Below, piece after piece: positions 12,772 to 17,870 of a stretch of DNA of 24,623 nucleotides. The stretch comes from a virus. The position numbers and the translations under genes were made by a program. The stretch lies in IMG/VR virus record IMGVR_UViG_3300021142_000170, positions 1-24,623 of that record. One strand, written 5' to 3'. The notes under the pieces are model-generated. The model ran no database searches and was not told the origin of the DNA. It saw only the letters and a list, made by a program, of their open reading frames with translations. Numbering within the stretch: the stretch's first letter is position 1; every line of letters begins with the position of its first letter.

Positions 12772-15168
12772 CTATTGTTGGGTTATTTGATTACCTTGTT
12801 GTTCTATACCAGAAGCGACGCCTTGCGCGGGTGATGGCGCTATGGGTGGTTGTTGCATTTGTGGCGGTAAGCTTTGTGTTGGTGTTTGGGGAGCTACAGG
12901 TGCATTAGGGTTAGTTTGTGGATTTCCACCTATAGATTGACCTTGTTGCGGGGTTATTTGCTGACCATCTGCAATACCACCGCCGTTTTTATCAACAAAA
13001 CCTACAGATTTACCGATTGAATCAGCAATAGGCACAATGGCAGGGTTAGCTGCCGCCGCCATTGCCGTTTGTATCATCTCGTATAGACCTTTGCTCGATG
13101 TTTCAACCGTATCAGCTTTAATCTTATCAACCTCAGCCTGCATCTTAGCTATTTGAGCCGCCAATAATTCCGGTGGGTTCTTAGCTTTTAACTCTTGCTG
13201 TAGTTTTTGATTTTCAGCTTGTAATTGAGCCACGACAGGATCTTGACCGCCATCACCTAAGCCTAGACCATTACGCACTAAATCAGCCATTTCTTTACGA
13301 TACGGCAAGTCTGTTGCATTAATAACGAATGGCATCAACATCGCTTGCACATTACCCGGCAACGATTTGACTAGCTCAGTGATTTGAACAAGCTGCTGAT
13401 TGCGGAATGTTGGCGTCGCAGGCGTATCTGCTAAGACGACTTTACAATTAATATGAGATATATCATTAAGAATAGTAGGTTGACCCGTTTTAGGATCAAT
13501 ACACGGTTGCTGAACATTAACGACCTGCCCTGTTGTTGGATCTTGTTGTTGAATAGTTTGCGTCATCTGATTCAAGACAACAATACGGTCATTGCCGTTA
13601 TCATCTGTTACGGTGACTTCATGGTTAGGCATATCTGACAATAACTGAATGACGAGCTCTAACAAGATTTCATCAGCCTGCCGCGCTGCCATATTAAAGT
13701 TATCATTGATATCAGCGAGCGTTACTGCATCTTGCTCAACAAGTGAATTAATAGCTAAACCTGACGTAGCGCCTGAATCACGCCCTAATGTGGCATTATG
13801 CACCCCCACGTTTGTTTGAATCGCTTCTTTGGCAGCCTGCATGACTTGAAACTGCTGTTGAGCCATTTGACCATTTTCTTGTACTTCAAATGATTCACCG
13901 GGTTTATTACGTTTAATAATGTATGCGTCCGGTCTAGCGATTTCTTGAGCTGCTACCGCATGATCTTCAACAGCTTCTTCTGTGGCTATGACGCGTTTAG
14001 CAGACAATAACCAATACATCTTAGACTTACGCGCATTGATCTCATCTTGTGGGCTCATCATAGCCCTGATCAATCCATAAGGAATACCAGTAGCATCTTC
14101 TCTAAAGCCAAAGAACGGTACATACGGAAAGTGTCGATGCTTATACGGACTGGCATAATCACCCACCAATCGCGGCCCAATGTAATAAGCCACTCTCACT
14201 TTGTCGTAAACGGCTTTTTCTGGTTGCACGGCACCTGATTGAGCAATGGCTTGATGCAACGGATCTTTGTCGTCAAACTCCATGATTTTGCCATTAGGCA
14301 TTTTAATAATCATGCCGGTTTCATGTACCTTGTACCAAACCTCATAAACCATCAATCGACGACGCGTGACATTCATCCACTCGTATTGTTCGGTGGTCAT
14401 AGTAAAGCCAGTTGATGAATCAAAAGCATCATTACGTTGGGTTAGTTGACTAAATCCTGTCAAATCCATATCCCAGCCCGCCCGTTCACTCATAGCATTT
14501 CTTATCCAATCGCGCTGTTCTGGAAAGGCTTCCATCAATACGTCTTGGTCATACCATTGTCTACGAACTAAATACCGTCCATCTGAGTAATCTGGCTTTT
14601 TTGCTCGCCAATCGAAATACATTTCTCGTCTATGAATATGCTCATAACGAATTTTAGGCTTAAAAGGATCAGAATTGAATGCCACTTCTACCCAGCTAAT
14701 CCCTACTTTAATCTGCTCAGCATACGCATCAGACTTTGCTCTATTCGCGCGAGCTGAATCACCATGATGTTTAACCTCGATTGATAAAGCTTCAGCGACA
14801 TCGTTATTTGTTTCGCCGGCTTCAGGCTCTACTTTGGTATCAACGCGCGTCTTAGCTTGCATACCAAGTACCGCATTGATAGTGGGTTGTATCAAATTGT
14901 CAATTGAAGGCGGTTGGCCTCGATTAGCCAGCTCTTCTATAACATCTGCATCGAGTTGATTGCCATCATAATAAGCACACTCTCTATCAGCTACCTGTCT
15001 CCATCGAGGTTGATTACGTATTTCATCCAATATGCGTTGGACTTTATAAATATTCCAACTATCCGCTTCAGCATCACCGATTTGTGGGATAAGCTGATCT
15101 TCTGGCGTTAAATGCGTAACATTTTCTTGGTGACTGGTTATTTCAGTCATTTGGTTAAATACCGACAT
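12772..15168 (-). CDS. Portal protein (P22-like)
   Basis: A 798-residue protein; P22 portal is 725. The pattern includes an N-terminal helical domain (RQVADRECAYYDGNQL), a central wing/stem (YFDWRAKKPDYSDGRYLVRRQW), MMSPQDEINARKSKMYWLL and RPDAYIIKRNKPGESFEV, a stem/clip region, then an alpha-helical barrel-like part with coiled coil (QLQAENQKLQQELKAKN). The final 80 residues are Gln/Pro/Asn-rich (IGGNPQTNPNAPVAPQTPTQ), which may be disordered. The start has GGGAG 6 bases upstream inside a GGGA-loop hairpin. Its place between TerL and scaffold supports the call. Confidence 0.85.
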   Translation of the reverse strand: MSVFNQMTEITSHQENVTHLTPEDQLIPQIGDAEADSWNIYKVQRILDEIRNQPRWRQVADRECAYYDGNQLDADVIEELANRGQPPSIDNLIQPTINAVLGMQAKTRVDTKVEPEAGETNNDVAEALSIEVKHHGDSARANRAKSDAYAEQIKVGISWVEVAFNSDPFKPKIRYEHIHRREMYFDWRAKKPDYSDGRYLVRRQWYDQDVLMEAFPEQRDWIRNAMSERAGWDMDLTGFSQLTQRNDAFDSSTGFTMTTEQYEWMNVTRRRLMVYEVWYKVHETGMIIKMPNGKIMEFDDKDPLHQAIAQSGAVQPEKAVYDKVRVAYYIGPRLVGDYASPYKHRHFPYVPFFGFREDATGIPYGLIRAMMSPQDEINARKSKMYWLLSAKRVIATEEAVEDHAVAAQEIARPDAYIIKRNKPGESFEVQENGQMAQQQFQVMQAAKEAIQTNVGVHNATLGRDSGATSGLAINSLVEQDAVTLADINDNFNMAARQADEILLELVIQLLSDMPNHEVTVTDDNGNDRIVVLNQMTQTIQQQDPTTGQVVNVQQPCIDPKTGQPTILNDISHINCKVVLADTPATPTFRNQQLVQITELVKSLPGNVQAMLMPFVINATDLPYRKEMADLVRNGLGLGDGGQDPVVAQLQAENQKLQQELKAKNPPELLAAQIAKMQAEVDKIKADTVETSSKGLYEMIQTAMAAAANPAIVPIADSIGKSVGFVDKNGGGIADGQQITPQQGQSIGGNPQTNPNAPVAPQTPTQSLPPQMQQPPIAPSPAQGVASGIEQQGNQITQQ

Positions 15169-15170
15169 TG

Positions 15171-15184
15171 TTGTCTCCCGACAA
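15171..15184 (-). repeat. Boundary hairpin, GGGA-loop type, at the portal ribosome site
   Basis: On the minus strand it reads TTGTC-GGGA-GACAA, a perfect 5-bp stem. The GGGAG of the loop and first stem base is the only good ribosome site for the ATG at 15168, which follows two bases after the stem. Folding should compete with ribosome binding. Confidence 0.7.
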
Positions 15185-15203
15185 TAGTGAGTGTTTGTTT
15201 AGG

Positions 15204-17870
15204 CTATCGCCAGCTTCGTTTTAATTGTGATCTATCAAATGCTTTGCTTTTACCGGAGTCGAACATATTGCCTGCGGCTACTTCTTGTCCCCATTGGATG
15301 AATGCATCGCTATTACTTACCAATATTCCATTAGCATAATAAGCATGATGCTTATCTATAGTTAAATCATAAACCGGTTTCAGATTGTTGTTTTTTGTTA
15401 ATGCTATCACTGTAGTAACACTTTCTTGAACATGTATGTTTTCTTGTAGGATAAGGCGTTGAAAACTCCGTGTTACATATAATGCAATTCTTTTTAACTG
15501 ATATTCTATTTTCCCACGTCTTTTTTCCATGCTCAGCATGCCATTTTTTACCAGCTTCAGAGGCATGCCACTCTTTAGATTTATCATTAACTGACAATAG
15601 TTGTCTTTTATTTTCCTCGCTTCCAACCCAAGGATTAGTTTTTCCATGCTCTTTTGAGTGATCTGATGCCGATATAAGCTGTAAGTTTTCAATGCTATTG
15701 TTAGCCTTGTCTTCATCAATATGATGAATGTGGTAGCCTTGTGGTATCTCTCCGTTATGGTAAATCCATACTTCCCTATGCAAAAGCTTTCCACCATCTC
15801 TTTTATAATCTGACTTAAAATATCCTTCCGGCTTTCGATAAAAGACAACACCATTAAATTCTTGTGATGGATTCTTTGTTTTTTTTCGCCTAACCATACC
15901 TTGCTGTCTTGTTCCCCAGTTTTCTTCATTAAGGTTGTCGTAATCACCATCAATTGGGAAAACAATAAAACCATTTGCAATCTTACCGACCCTATCATTC
16001 CATAAAACCTGATGTAAAAGGCTTTGCACGCCATTTCGTTGAGATACGTAATATCCTCTTTTAGACCATAACCAGTATTTAACGCCTTGGTATATTCGAT
16101 AACGCCTTTCCGTAGTCCTACACGCATGAATTGTTTGATATTCCATAGTGGCTTCCTATCTGTTGAAATAATGTCATTATAGCATAATGCATCAGCACGT
16201 AAGACTCCTCTTATCGTGAATATCTTATGTTCAGGTGAGCATTCAATTAACTCTCCAGTTGATAGCTCAATAATTATCGTTATTGATTCTTTAATTAATC
16301 CTGAATGAGTAACATCACCAACAAAACCATCAGCTAATATAACCTGATCACCAACAACAACATTTTCAATAGATACTAATCCTCTGGTTGTTGATATTTG
16401 TGTGCCAGCTATCAAACAACCGTGACTATTTTCATCATGTAAAGGCTCATTGGCCCATGATCCTGTCACCGCTACCCAGCGTTTCTTATAATTGTCCAAG
16501 CGCTTGATGCCTTGACCACAATTAGTTTCATCAAATACAGCGGCACTCATAGCTGCTCTGGTCGCCATAATGCCTGACAATTTATTGGTTACTCTTGGCA
16601 CAATCTCAAAACGTTGTCCTGGATAAAGCTCTTCAAGCATTTCTTTAATCGATTTTGATGTATCAGGCGTCGCCCCAATGCGTTTATGATCAGATTCGTG
16701 CGGTATATAGTGTTTACCGTACACATAACCGCGTTCACTGGCTAATAACTGCAAATACCGCACATAGGTGATCAAATCCTCACCGCTATTTTCATAATAG
16801 TTAATAAATCGGTGTTGCAATGTGCCAAACTGATGAAACCAAATAGCAGTCATATCACCTTTACCAATATCCCAAAAGGTATTGATAGGCACCGGTAAAA
16901 CAGGCACAGAAGGCACAATACGCCCCGTTTTTCTAACGGCACTCATTTGCTCAGAGAAATATTTGCCATCCGTGCTGATTTGAAAGGCTTCCTCTGGTGT
17001 GCTTGGGTATTCTTGGCGCATCTTCCACATATCGCCTGAAAAATCAGATTCACAGGTTGCCACATACCAAGCGCGTTTATGCTCTGTCAAAACATGACCA
17101 ATTTTGGCTTCTGTTTCATAAAAGTGTTTTAAATACTTTTCATCAATGAGTACATTTTCAGGATCAATCTCATATTCGTCGGCATCCCACCAGCTATAAA
17201 AATGAAACTTATAATCTTTGATACTGAGCGTGGCTTTTGTATCGTATTGATCCATAGCGCGCTTAGTAATCTTATAAAACTCGCCTTCCTGCCCTTCTGC
17301 GGTTGATTCAATAACCAATATCCCAGACTTGGGCACAGCGGGAATAGAGCCGGTAATTACTTCTTGGGCTTTATCAGGATATTTAGCACAAATCTTACCG
17401 AACTCAGATATATGCAATCGGTGTATCGTGCCTGACCGCATCGATGTAGCCACACGAACCGACGATAAGTTATGCGCAAACTGTATCTCTCTTGCTGAAT
17501 CCTTTACCAAAGGAAATTCAGTTTGCATAAATTTTGGTAAATGATCATAAGCAAATTTAACTTTGTGTCGAAAGATAATCTCTACGGCATCTTTATCCTG
17601 CGCAATAATCCCACATTGAATCGGATCTTTACTAAAAAGCGCTGTGTCTAACCACATAATGGCTATCAGGGTTGTAATACCGCGTTGCCGGGCTTTTAAT
17701 ACGACATTACGATGCCACAATGATTTCATGAGCTCTAACTGCACATCATTAGGTTTAAACGGTACTATTAAACCTTCATCGTTATCGTCATCACCTTTTA
17801 CGATGATTTTATAAATCTCACCGCTGGTAATGCGCCACCAAGGATCATCAAGATGTTCTTTAGTGATCAA
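15204..17870 (-). CDS. Large terminase subunit interrupted by an intein
   Basis: The 888-residue precursor becomes 519 residues after splicing (484 + 35), near the P22 gp2 size of 499. The ATPase carries a Walker-A-like KARQRGITT (59-67), Walker B HISEFGK (153-159) and VIESTAEG (186-193). The nuclease has D334 in FWDIGKGD, D394 in PHESDHK, and the third acidic residue D855 in SHG|SDAF. The intein occupies 485-853, precisely before SDAF, so the active site is completed only after splicing. The start is TTG, with GGTGG 7 bases upstream, overlapping the TerS stop. The 35-residue C-extein is short but in line with P22-like terminases. The frame is open throughout, including 260 codons overlapped by an HNH gene in another frame. 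Confidence 0.9.
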   Translation of the reverse strand: MITKEHLDDPWWRITSGEIYKIIVKGDDDNDEGLIVPFKPNDVQLELMKSLWHRNVVLKARQRGITTLIAIMWLDTALFSKDPIQCGIIAQDKDAVEIIFRHKVKFAYDHLPKFMQTEFPLVKDSAREIQFAHNLSSVRVATSMRSGTIHRLHISEFGKICAKYPDKAQEVITGSIPAVPKSGILVIESTAEGQEGEFYKITKRAMDQYDTKATLSIKDYKFHFYSWWDADEYEIDPENVLIDEKYLKHFYETEAKIGHVLTEHKRAWYVATCESDFSGDMWKMRQEYPSTPEEAFQISTDGKYFSEQMSAVRKTGRIVPSVPVLPVPINTFWDIGKGDMTAIWFHQFGTLQHRFINYYENSGEDLITYVRYLQLLASERGYVYGKHYIPHESDHKRIGATPDTSKSIKEMLEELYPGQRFEIVPRVTNKLSGIMATRAAMSAAVFDETNCGQGIKRLDNYKKRWVAVTGSWANEPLHDENSHGCLIAGTQISTTRGLVSIENVVVGDQVILADGFVGDVTHSGLIKESITIIIELSTGELIECSPEHKIFTIRGVLRADALCYNDIISTDRKPLWNIKQFMRVGLRKGVIEYTKALNTGYGLKEDITYLNEMACKAFYIRFYGMIGSVRLQMVLLFSQLMVITTTLMKKTGEQDSKVWLGEKKQRIHHKNLMVLSFIESRKDILSQIIKEMVESFCIGKYGFTITERYHKATTFIILMKTRLTIALKTYSLYRHQITQKSMEKLILGLEARKIKDNYCQLMINLKSGMPLKLVKNGMLSMEKRRGKIEYQLKRIALYVTRSFQRLILQENIHVQESVTTVIALTKNNNLKPVYDLTIDKHHAYYANGILVSNSDAFIQWGQEVAAGNMFDSGKSKAFDRSQLKRSWR
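15367..16146 (-). CDS. HNH homing endonuclease nested out of frame inside the terminase intein
   Basis: A 259-residue protein read in the -1 frame relative to the terminase. An intact HNH unit spans residues 121-167 (LLHREVW, then GYHIHHIDEDKANNS with IENL, then SDHSKEH; likely H141/H142, N150, H163). A related degenerate unit spans 43-87 (LLHQVLW, FPIDGDYDN, NEENW) in which the His pair is replaced by Phe-Pro. The C-terminus has EWHAS/KWHAE repeats and a zinc-finger-like C221-x2-C224-x14-C239-x3-C243. AGGAAG lies 5 bases before the ATG, and an in-frame TAG four codons upstream fixes the start region. Arg is mostly AGA/AGG, unlike the terminase exteins I sampled, suggesting foreign origin. 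It begins and ends exactly between the intein splicing halves. Confidence 0.85.
   Translation of the reverse strand: MEYQTIHACRTTERRYRIYQGVKYWLWSKRGYYVSQRNGVQSLLHQVLWNDRVGKIANGFIVFPIDGDYDNLNEENWGTRQQGMVRRKKTKNPSQEFNGVVFYRKPEGYFKSDYKRDGGKLLHREVWIYHNGEIPQGYHIHHIDEDKANNSIENLQLISASDHSKEHGKTNPWVGSEENKRQLLSVNDKSKEWHASEAGKKWHAEHGKKTWENRISVKKNCIICNTEFSTPYPTRKHTCSRKCYYSDSINKKQQSETGL
16152..16184 (-). promoter_or_regulatory. Extended -10 promoter and ribosome site of the nested HNH gene
   Basis: On the minus strand TGCTATAAT (16176-16184) is a perfect extended -10 element; no -35 resembling TTGACA is seen. Transcription would start near 16169. AGGAAG (16152-16157) lies 5 bases before the HNH ATG and is one of the best ribosome sites in the window. 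Both elements also encode terminase-intein residues. Confidence 0.55.

Follow-up and report, generated by a model that had tools for sequence, protein, structure and literature searches.

An intein in phage terminase genes with a putative HNH homing endonuclease gene nested in a different reading frame

Group I introns often carry HNH genes, and fractured genes, in which a free-standing endonuclease gene lies between the two halves of a split intein, were reportedly described by Dassa in 2009. The nearest published case to the locus described here is the out-of-frame HNH of ShiLan; in mycobacteriophages the ShiLan domain and Pacc40 are HNH insertions hidden out of frame within methylase genes (PMC11855218). 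No splicing domain is detectable in ShiLan, the insertion is believed to remain part of the methylase, and no ribosome site was found for it (PMC11855218). Searches of open-licence full texts turned up no intein described as housing an out-of-frame endonuclease, and with this scope priority is not certain. Here we describe a 24,623 nucleotide stretch of virus DNA (IMG/VR record IMGVR_UViG_3300021142_000170, positions 1 to 24,623), referred to below as the window, whose terL gene very probably holds a composite homing element, an intein with its endonuclease slot occupied by an HNH homing endonuclease gene that lies in the -1 frame and is translated on its own.

The terL intein of the window and its nested gene

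The window contains a terL ORF of 888 aa on the minus strand (15204-17870) which encloses an intein of 369 aa, running from terL residue Cys485 (16418) to Asn853 (15312) and inserted after His-Gly, ahead of the Ser-Asp-Ala of the TerL nuclease motif. The terL frame is continuous across the insert with 0 stops and the host gene is not two cistrons. The features of the locus are as follows.

16419..17870, minus strand: terL N-extein, residues 1-484, comprising the ATPase domain and the beginning of the nuclease domain (PHROG terminase large subunit, 2.8e-26 over 25-484)
15312..16418, minus strand: intein, Cys1-Asn369 (Intein_splicing, intein_Cterm; site empty in L004/L005)
16149..16418, minus strand: N-terminal splicing half with blocks A and B (AlphaFold, Foldseek)
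16156..16158, minus strand: TAG stop in the HNH frame (sequence, phase)
16154..16157, minus strand: AGGA, ribosome-site-like (sequence; Shine-Dalgarno (SD)-like sites enriched across the family)
15367..16146, minus strand: putative HNH homing endonuclease gene, -1 frame, 259 aa (HNH_3, phase +2, predicted fold)
15655..15789, minus strand: HNH_3 catalytic core, HNH residues 120-164, motif GYHIHHIDEDKANNSIENLQL (profile coordinates, conserved residues)
15367..15369, minus strand: HNH stop TGA inside the block F codons TAT GAT (same place in 37/72 unique nested loci)
15312..15428, minus strand: C-terminal splicing half with blocks F and G, VYDLTIDKHHAYYANGILVSN and then S across the junction (AlphaFold)
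15204..15311, minus strand: terL C-extein with +1 Ser (+1 is Ala in intein-less relatives)

The intein frame matched Intein_splicing (8.4e-10) and Hint_2 (5.1e-5), its only Pfam matches, and NCBIfam intein_Cterm (9.8e-7); profile searches with both collections gave no endonuclease domain in this frame, in agreement with the sequence-only reading, which had seen no endonuclease motif in the frame of blocks A/B and F/G. The splicing residues C1, H64, N369 and the +1 Ser are all present. Block B reads SxxH instead of TxxH and the penultimate residue is Ser, and because of these two deviations the efficiency of splicing is uncertain. Two relatives that are 88% identical in the N-extein (L004 and L005) have the exact insertion site empty, with Ala at the +1 position of the occupied allele's Ser. 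One further contig (L002) is identical to the window throughout, and an independent assembly from a different metagenome (L003) has 10 differences in 12.6 kb and zero in the intein. In AlphaFold predictions of the intein frame both Hint halves are confident (pLDDT 93-98 for residues 1-90 and mostly 83-97 for residues 331-369, low only at 325-331) and the overlap in the middle is of low confidence, with Foldseek returning the DnaB class 3 and gp41-1 inteins (E about 1e-6), and thus a Hint fold. By its blocks, its predicted fold and its empty sister alleles the insert is an intein, a Hint protein-splicing element that is predicted to splice.

The HNH ORF (15367-16146, minus strand, 259 aa; HNH_3, E=6e-21 with Pfam) lies wholly within the intein at phase +2 relative to terL, equivalent to -1, and starts with an ATG at terL codon 575. 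A TAG at 16156-16158 stands in the HNH frame 9 nt upstream of this ATG, which rules out an in-frame N-terminal extension, and AGGA at 16154-16157, a mere 4-nt match to a ribosome site, precedes the ATG by 7 nt. The stop TGA is formed from the Tyr-Asp codons TAT GAT of intein block F. The complete -1 frame gene from codon 575 to block F, with its own ribosome site and an upstream in-frame stop, had been proposed from the sequence and is borne out here. Among 36 relatives H141, H142 and H163 are invariant and N150 and N154 nearly so; the catalytic motif of the window HNH is intact, making it a putative homing endonuclease that would cut or nick the empty allele. Its predicted structure has a pLDDT of 92 and its best fold match is I-HmuI, a modest one (E 0.055, prob 0.96). 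A PDB sequence search with the HNH protein gave nothing useful, and no promoter-like site stands out upstream of the gene. Profiles and structure predictions for both frames, a check proposed alongside the original reading, place the intein in one frame and the HNH in the other.

A family of loci with the same layout

Relatives of the HNH were drawn from viral contigs and from one-genome-per-species contigs. Among 169 HNH frames, 96 lie within an open ORF of another frame that has intein blocks, all but one of them in the same phase, and the sole in-frame HNH is that of an intein in a ribonucleotide reductase (L153). In a search that allowed stops, 87 of the HNHs that are flanked by both intein halves lie in a continuous host frame with 0 stops and at phase +2, a nested class that is defined by its open frames. 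The controls for this class were free-standing HNH relatives and a sample chosen independently of the HNH. As the intein alignment had no stretch conserved enough for a locus search, contigs for this sample were picked out solely by DNA matching the intein motif HEYFANG. All 70 of its loci with both intein halves (70/70) have an open frame; a -1 HNH is present in 65/70 (61 found by HMM and 4 by reading frames) and an in-frame HNH in 0/70. The four missed by the HMM filter have the HNH intact at phase +2 when judged on reading frames. The remaining 5/70 are mini-inteins without an HNH, so that both kinds of relative which the original reading had suggested looking for, phages with the intein and no HNH gene and other inteins with an out-of-frame nuclease, are found in this sample.

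The out-of-frame HNH layout of the window is thus no one-off but recurs in a family with about 90 further members in phages and prophages. The N-exteins of family members are terminases, and the insertion point of the intein is in nearly all loci ahead of the nuclease motif Asp of TerL. Annotated carriers include Tetrasphaera phage TJE1, Acinetobacter phage Highwayman and Rhodobacteraceae phage LS06-2018-MD07, whose records show TerL only. There is no second annotated terL in the TJE1 and Highwayman records, and that of LS06-2018-MD07 has an additional short upstream CDS named terminase large subunit.

A number of related loci are arranged differently. In L133 (1331-4732) a single TerL-like ORF is interrupted by two inteins; they occupy two conserved TerL sites other than that of the window, and each has a -1 HNH nested in it. 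L132 (333-4706), from the archaeon Nitrosotalea, combines a nested-HNH intein and an in-frame LAGLIDADG intein sequence in the same terminase-like gene. In L098 (923-3190) the HNH is nested in the +1 phase rather than -1, likely an independent origin. A relative of the window TerL (L008, 2173-4575) has a different intein at the Walker A motif. Free-standing members of the HNH family adjoin terminase genes in L017 (2492-3133) and L020 (2483-3124), phages in which terL is intein-less, and HNHs of this kind are a possible source of the nested gene. In L148 (3300-4727) a complete terL is followed by an HNH gene and then by a second copy of the terL 3' end (LGDCFRYALVNFEYSTYKQ), which looks like an element carrying its own gene end.

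At about 18 loci the same HNH family lies between IntN and IntC and the host frame is broken, with the IntC having its own candidate start, in several cases at or near the HNH stop. Examples of this split layout are Lactobacillus phage CL2, a Leuconostoc contig and clostridial contigs. In L021 (1643-2774), L146, L048, L105, L058, L116 and L114 terL-IntN ends, a separate HNH follows, and then comes IntC with the TerL C-terminus and a candidate start. The split loci look like fractured genes with split inteins; L021 and the others are candidates for naturally split inteins within a phage gene that is essential, and may supply new ones for protein engineering. Entry of a free HNH gene into a mini-intein may have had two outcomes, the nested form and the split one.

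Use of both reading frames and alternative explanations

In order to assess whether the open frame could be fortuitous, the HNH protein was held fixed, its synonymous codons were re-drawn and stops were counted in the intein frame. For the window alone the intein frame was stop-free in 0.4% of re-draws. Across 95 nested loci there are 0 intein-frame stops, compared with 251 (codon permutation) to 453 (free synonymous) expected, and the third frame of the same loci contains 1754. When only the 71 unique loci are counted the overlap again has 0, and 24 free-standing relatives of the HNH family have 5.6 stops per locus in the corresponding frame. The +1 locus L098 also has 0 stops, with 12-14 expected. 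Substitutions in 15 non-overlapping pairs fall 627/496/993 by HNH codon position, and the overlap DNA has an amino acid identity of 0.69 read as HNH compared with 0.52 read as intein; by these comparisons the HNH frame is evidently under protein-level selection. Within the overlap the intein frame varies most at the second position of its own codons, the pattern to be expected if selection there asks for little more than an open frame.

The start and stop of the nested gene fit the slot. An SD-like site of at least 5 nt is found at the first HNH ATG in 23/65 loci (shuffled mean 5.1, maximum 12); the figure for ATGs internal to terL is 7.8%. A ribosome site of at least 4 nt is missing from the first HNH ATG in about half of the nested loci. 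In Bacteroidetes-type loci the ATG is made by xxA TGG over the conserved Trp of block B, and the HNH stop is on the block F Tyr in 37/72 unique nested loci, so that the gene takes up the whole of the canonical endonuclease slot. The single phase of nearly all cases can be explained by the number of intein-frame stops that an HNH creates, which is lowest in -1 (about 2.6-4.8 per locus, compared with 12-19 for the other phase) and gives a chance insertion its best prospect of survival there; common descent may add to the bias. Distance matrices for intein, HNH and terL correlate weakly (0.21-0.32) and are too saturated to date the origin.

These data bear on several other ways in which the locus could be read. 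A sequencing indel or a recent mutation that broke a normal in-frame intein-HNH fusion might be suspected from the tract of eight A on the coding strand (8 T in the window, 15879-15886) inside the HNH gene, and from the existence of a conventional in-frame HNH intein in the L153 ribonucleotide reductase. However, the tract is of equal length in the independent assembly, which has no intein difference at all, alignments of relatives cover HNH residues 9-243 and extend to either side of it in one frame, the HNH has its own start and stop codons, and about 90 divergent loci keep the same out-of-frame relation, leaving this explanation hardly credible. A sequencing indel we reject on the independent assemblies and the conserved phase. 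The sequence-only reading had itself raised an indel and in-frame homologues as the outcomes to look for; the independent assembly proved identical in the intein and the homologues are overwhelmingly out of frame. Programmed -1 ribosomal frameshifting, by which ribosomes on terL-IntN would slip to make an IntN-HNH fusion and no free HNH, has in its favour that the HNH occupies the very frame a slip would reach, but we consider it very improbable, as the HNH core is not preceded by an excess of slippery heptamers (11 loci, 13.1 expected), the window has its stop 9 nt before the ATG with no heptamer between, and start codons with ribosome sites are enriched.

The HNH could also be the ordinary ORF of an RNA-level element, a self-splicing intron or other mRNA removal, as might be thought from the frequency of HNH genes in group I introns. 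This is scarcely tenable, since there is no Rfam match within 14800-16800, the insert has intein blocks A, B, F and G together with a Hint fold, and the whole of it is kept stop-free, which an intron would not need. A last possibility is that the intein does not splice, TerL being inactive or another copy being used, with the open frame a residue of the past. The SxxH of block B and the penultimate Ser of the window, which deviate from the consensus, could be taken that way; this too is very unlikely given that stops are avoided in every nested locus, that TJE1 and Highwayman carry the insert in their only annotated terL and that a +1 Ser or Cys replaces the Ala or Leu of empty sites.

Mobility, proposed mechanism and comparison with known systems

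Evidence of mobility comes from an Acinetobacter phage with the same layout as the window's phage. The terL of the cultured phage Highwayman differs from that of phage Acba_21 by exactly 981 bp extra, the intein, and by 15 differences in the rest (1287/1302 identical). All 15 cluster at -163 to +12 nt relative to the insertion, which would have a chance of about 1e-13 if differences were evenly spread. Outside the gene the two phages agree at all of the 390 nt before terL and at 99.7% of the 1400 nt after it. The +1 residue is Leu in Acba_21 and Cys in Highwayman, and the insert is absent from dozens of other Acinetobacter phages. The cluster is in all appearance a homing co-conversion tract, as break repair from an intein-bearing donor leaves, and the pair shows on sequence grounds that intein and HNH were gained as one unit, and recently, presumably after a cut. 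Together with HNH-less mini-inteins and free-standing HNH kin, this whole-unit gain upholds the original description of a free-standing type of HNH gene nested in a mini-intein.

We propose that ribosomes initiating at terL would read through the whole insert, and that the overlap would form an unstructured peptide between the halves of the Hint fold, which would splice TerL. The start codons, ribosome sites and selection point to internal initiation that would give a separate HNH protein, and this would cut or nick intein-less terL at the nuclease motif. Repair would then copy the intein, the HNH and some flanking DNA, in line with the co-conversion tract of the relative. Little would be demanded of the intein frame beyond a stop-free overlap.

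On the comparisons above, out-of-frame dual coding is probably the rule in how the TerL inteins of a large family, in phages and prophages of bacteria and archaea, are built, with splicing and homing carried out by separate polypeptides from overlapping frames, at least two origins (-1 and +1), several TerL sites entered, and a connection between mini-, nested and split inteins. The two halves of the intein life cycle would then be divided between two genes sharing DNA, and the capture of a mini-intein by a free nuclease gene becomes a testable route. The family also represents a large hidden set of overlapping genes missed by annotation, with TJE1, Highwayman and others annotated only as TerL, and the cultured, sequenced phages among its carriers make the layout open to direct test.

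The element resembles ShiLan in its other-frame HNH within a stop-free host frame, its homing-like distribution and its changed +1 residue (PMC11855218). It is not a ShiLan-type element, however, as it includes a splicing domain, with the full set of intein blocks around the HNH; it also differs in having terL as its host gene and in the enrichment of ribosome sites across its family. Large in-frame inteins (the LAGLIDADG PI-SceI, or the HNH intein of L153) likewise have an endonuclease between blocks B and F that spreads the intein, and in L153 and L132 in-frame types occur beside the nested-HNH family, but there splicing and nuclease form one polypeptide whereas here two frames would give two polypeptides; the window, at phase +2 like 65/65 of the HNH-bearing inteins in the HEYFANG sample, is not a conventional endonuclease-bearing intein. 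With fractured genes it shares a separate endonuclease gene between IntN and IntC; their host gene is two cistrons, whereas the unbroken, stop-free frame of the window sets it apart from a split intein. Its layout is real, neither chance nor artefact, and an apparently new and widespread variant of endonuclease-bearing inteins. As in group I introns with nested endonuclease ORFs, the splicing element and the nuclease would be separate products of overlapping DNA, and the I-HmuI family of HNH enzymes provides the best fold match of the nested HNH. These introns splice by RNA, whereas the intein of the window would splice by protein, and for this reason the other frame must stay open.
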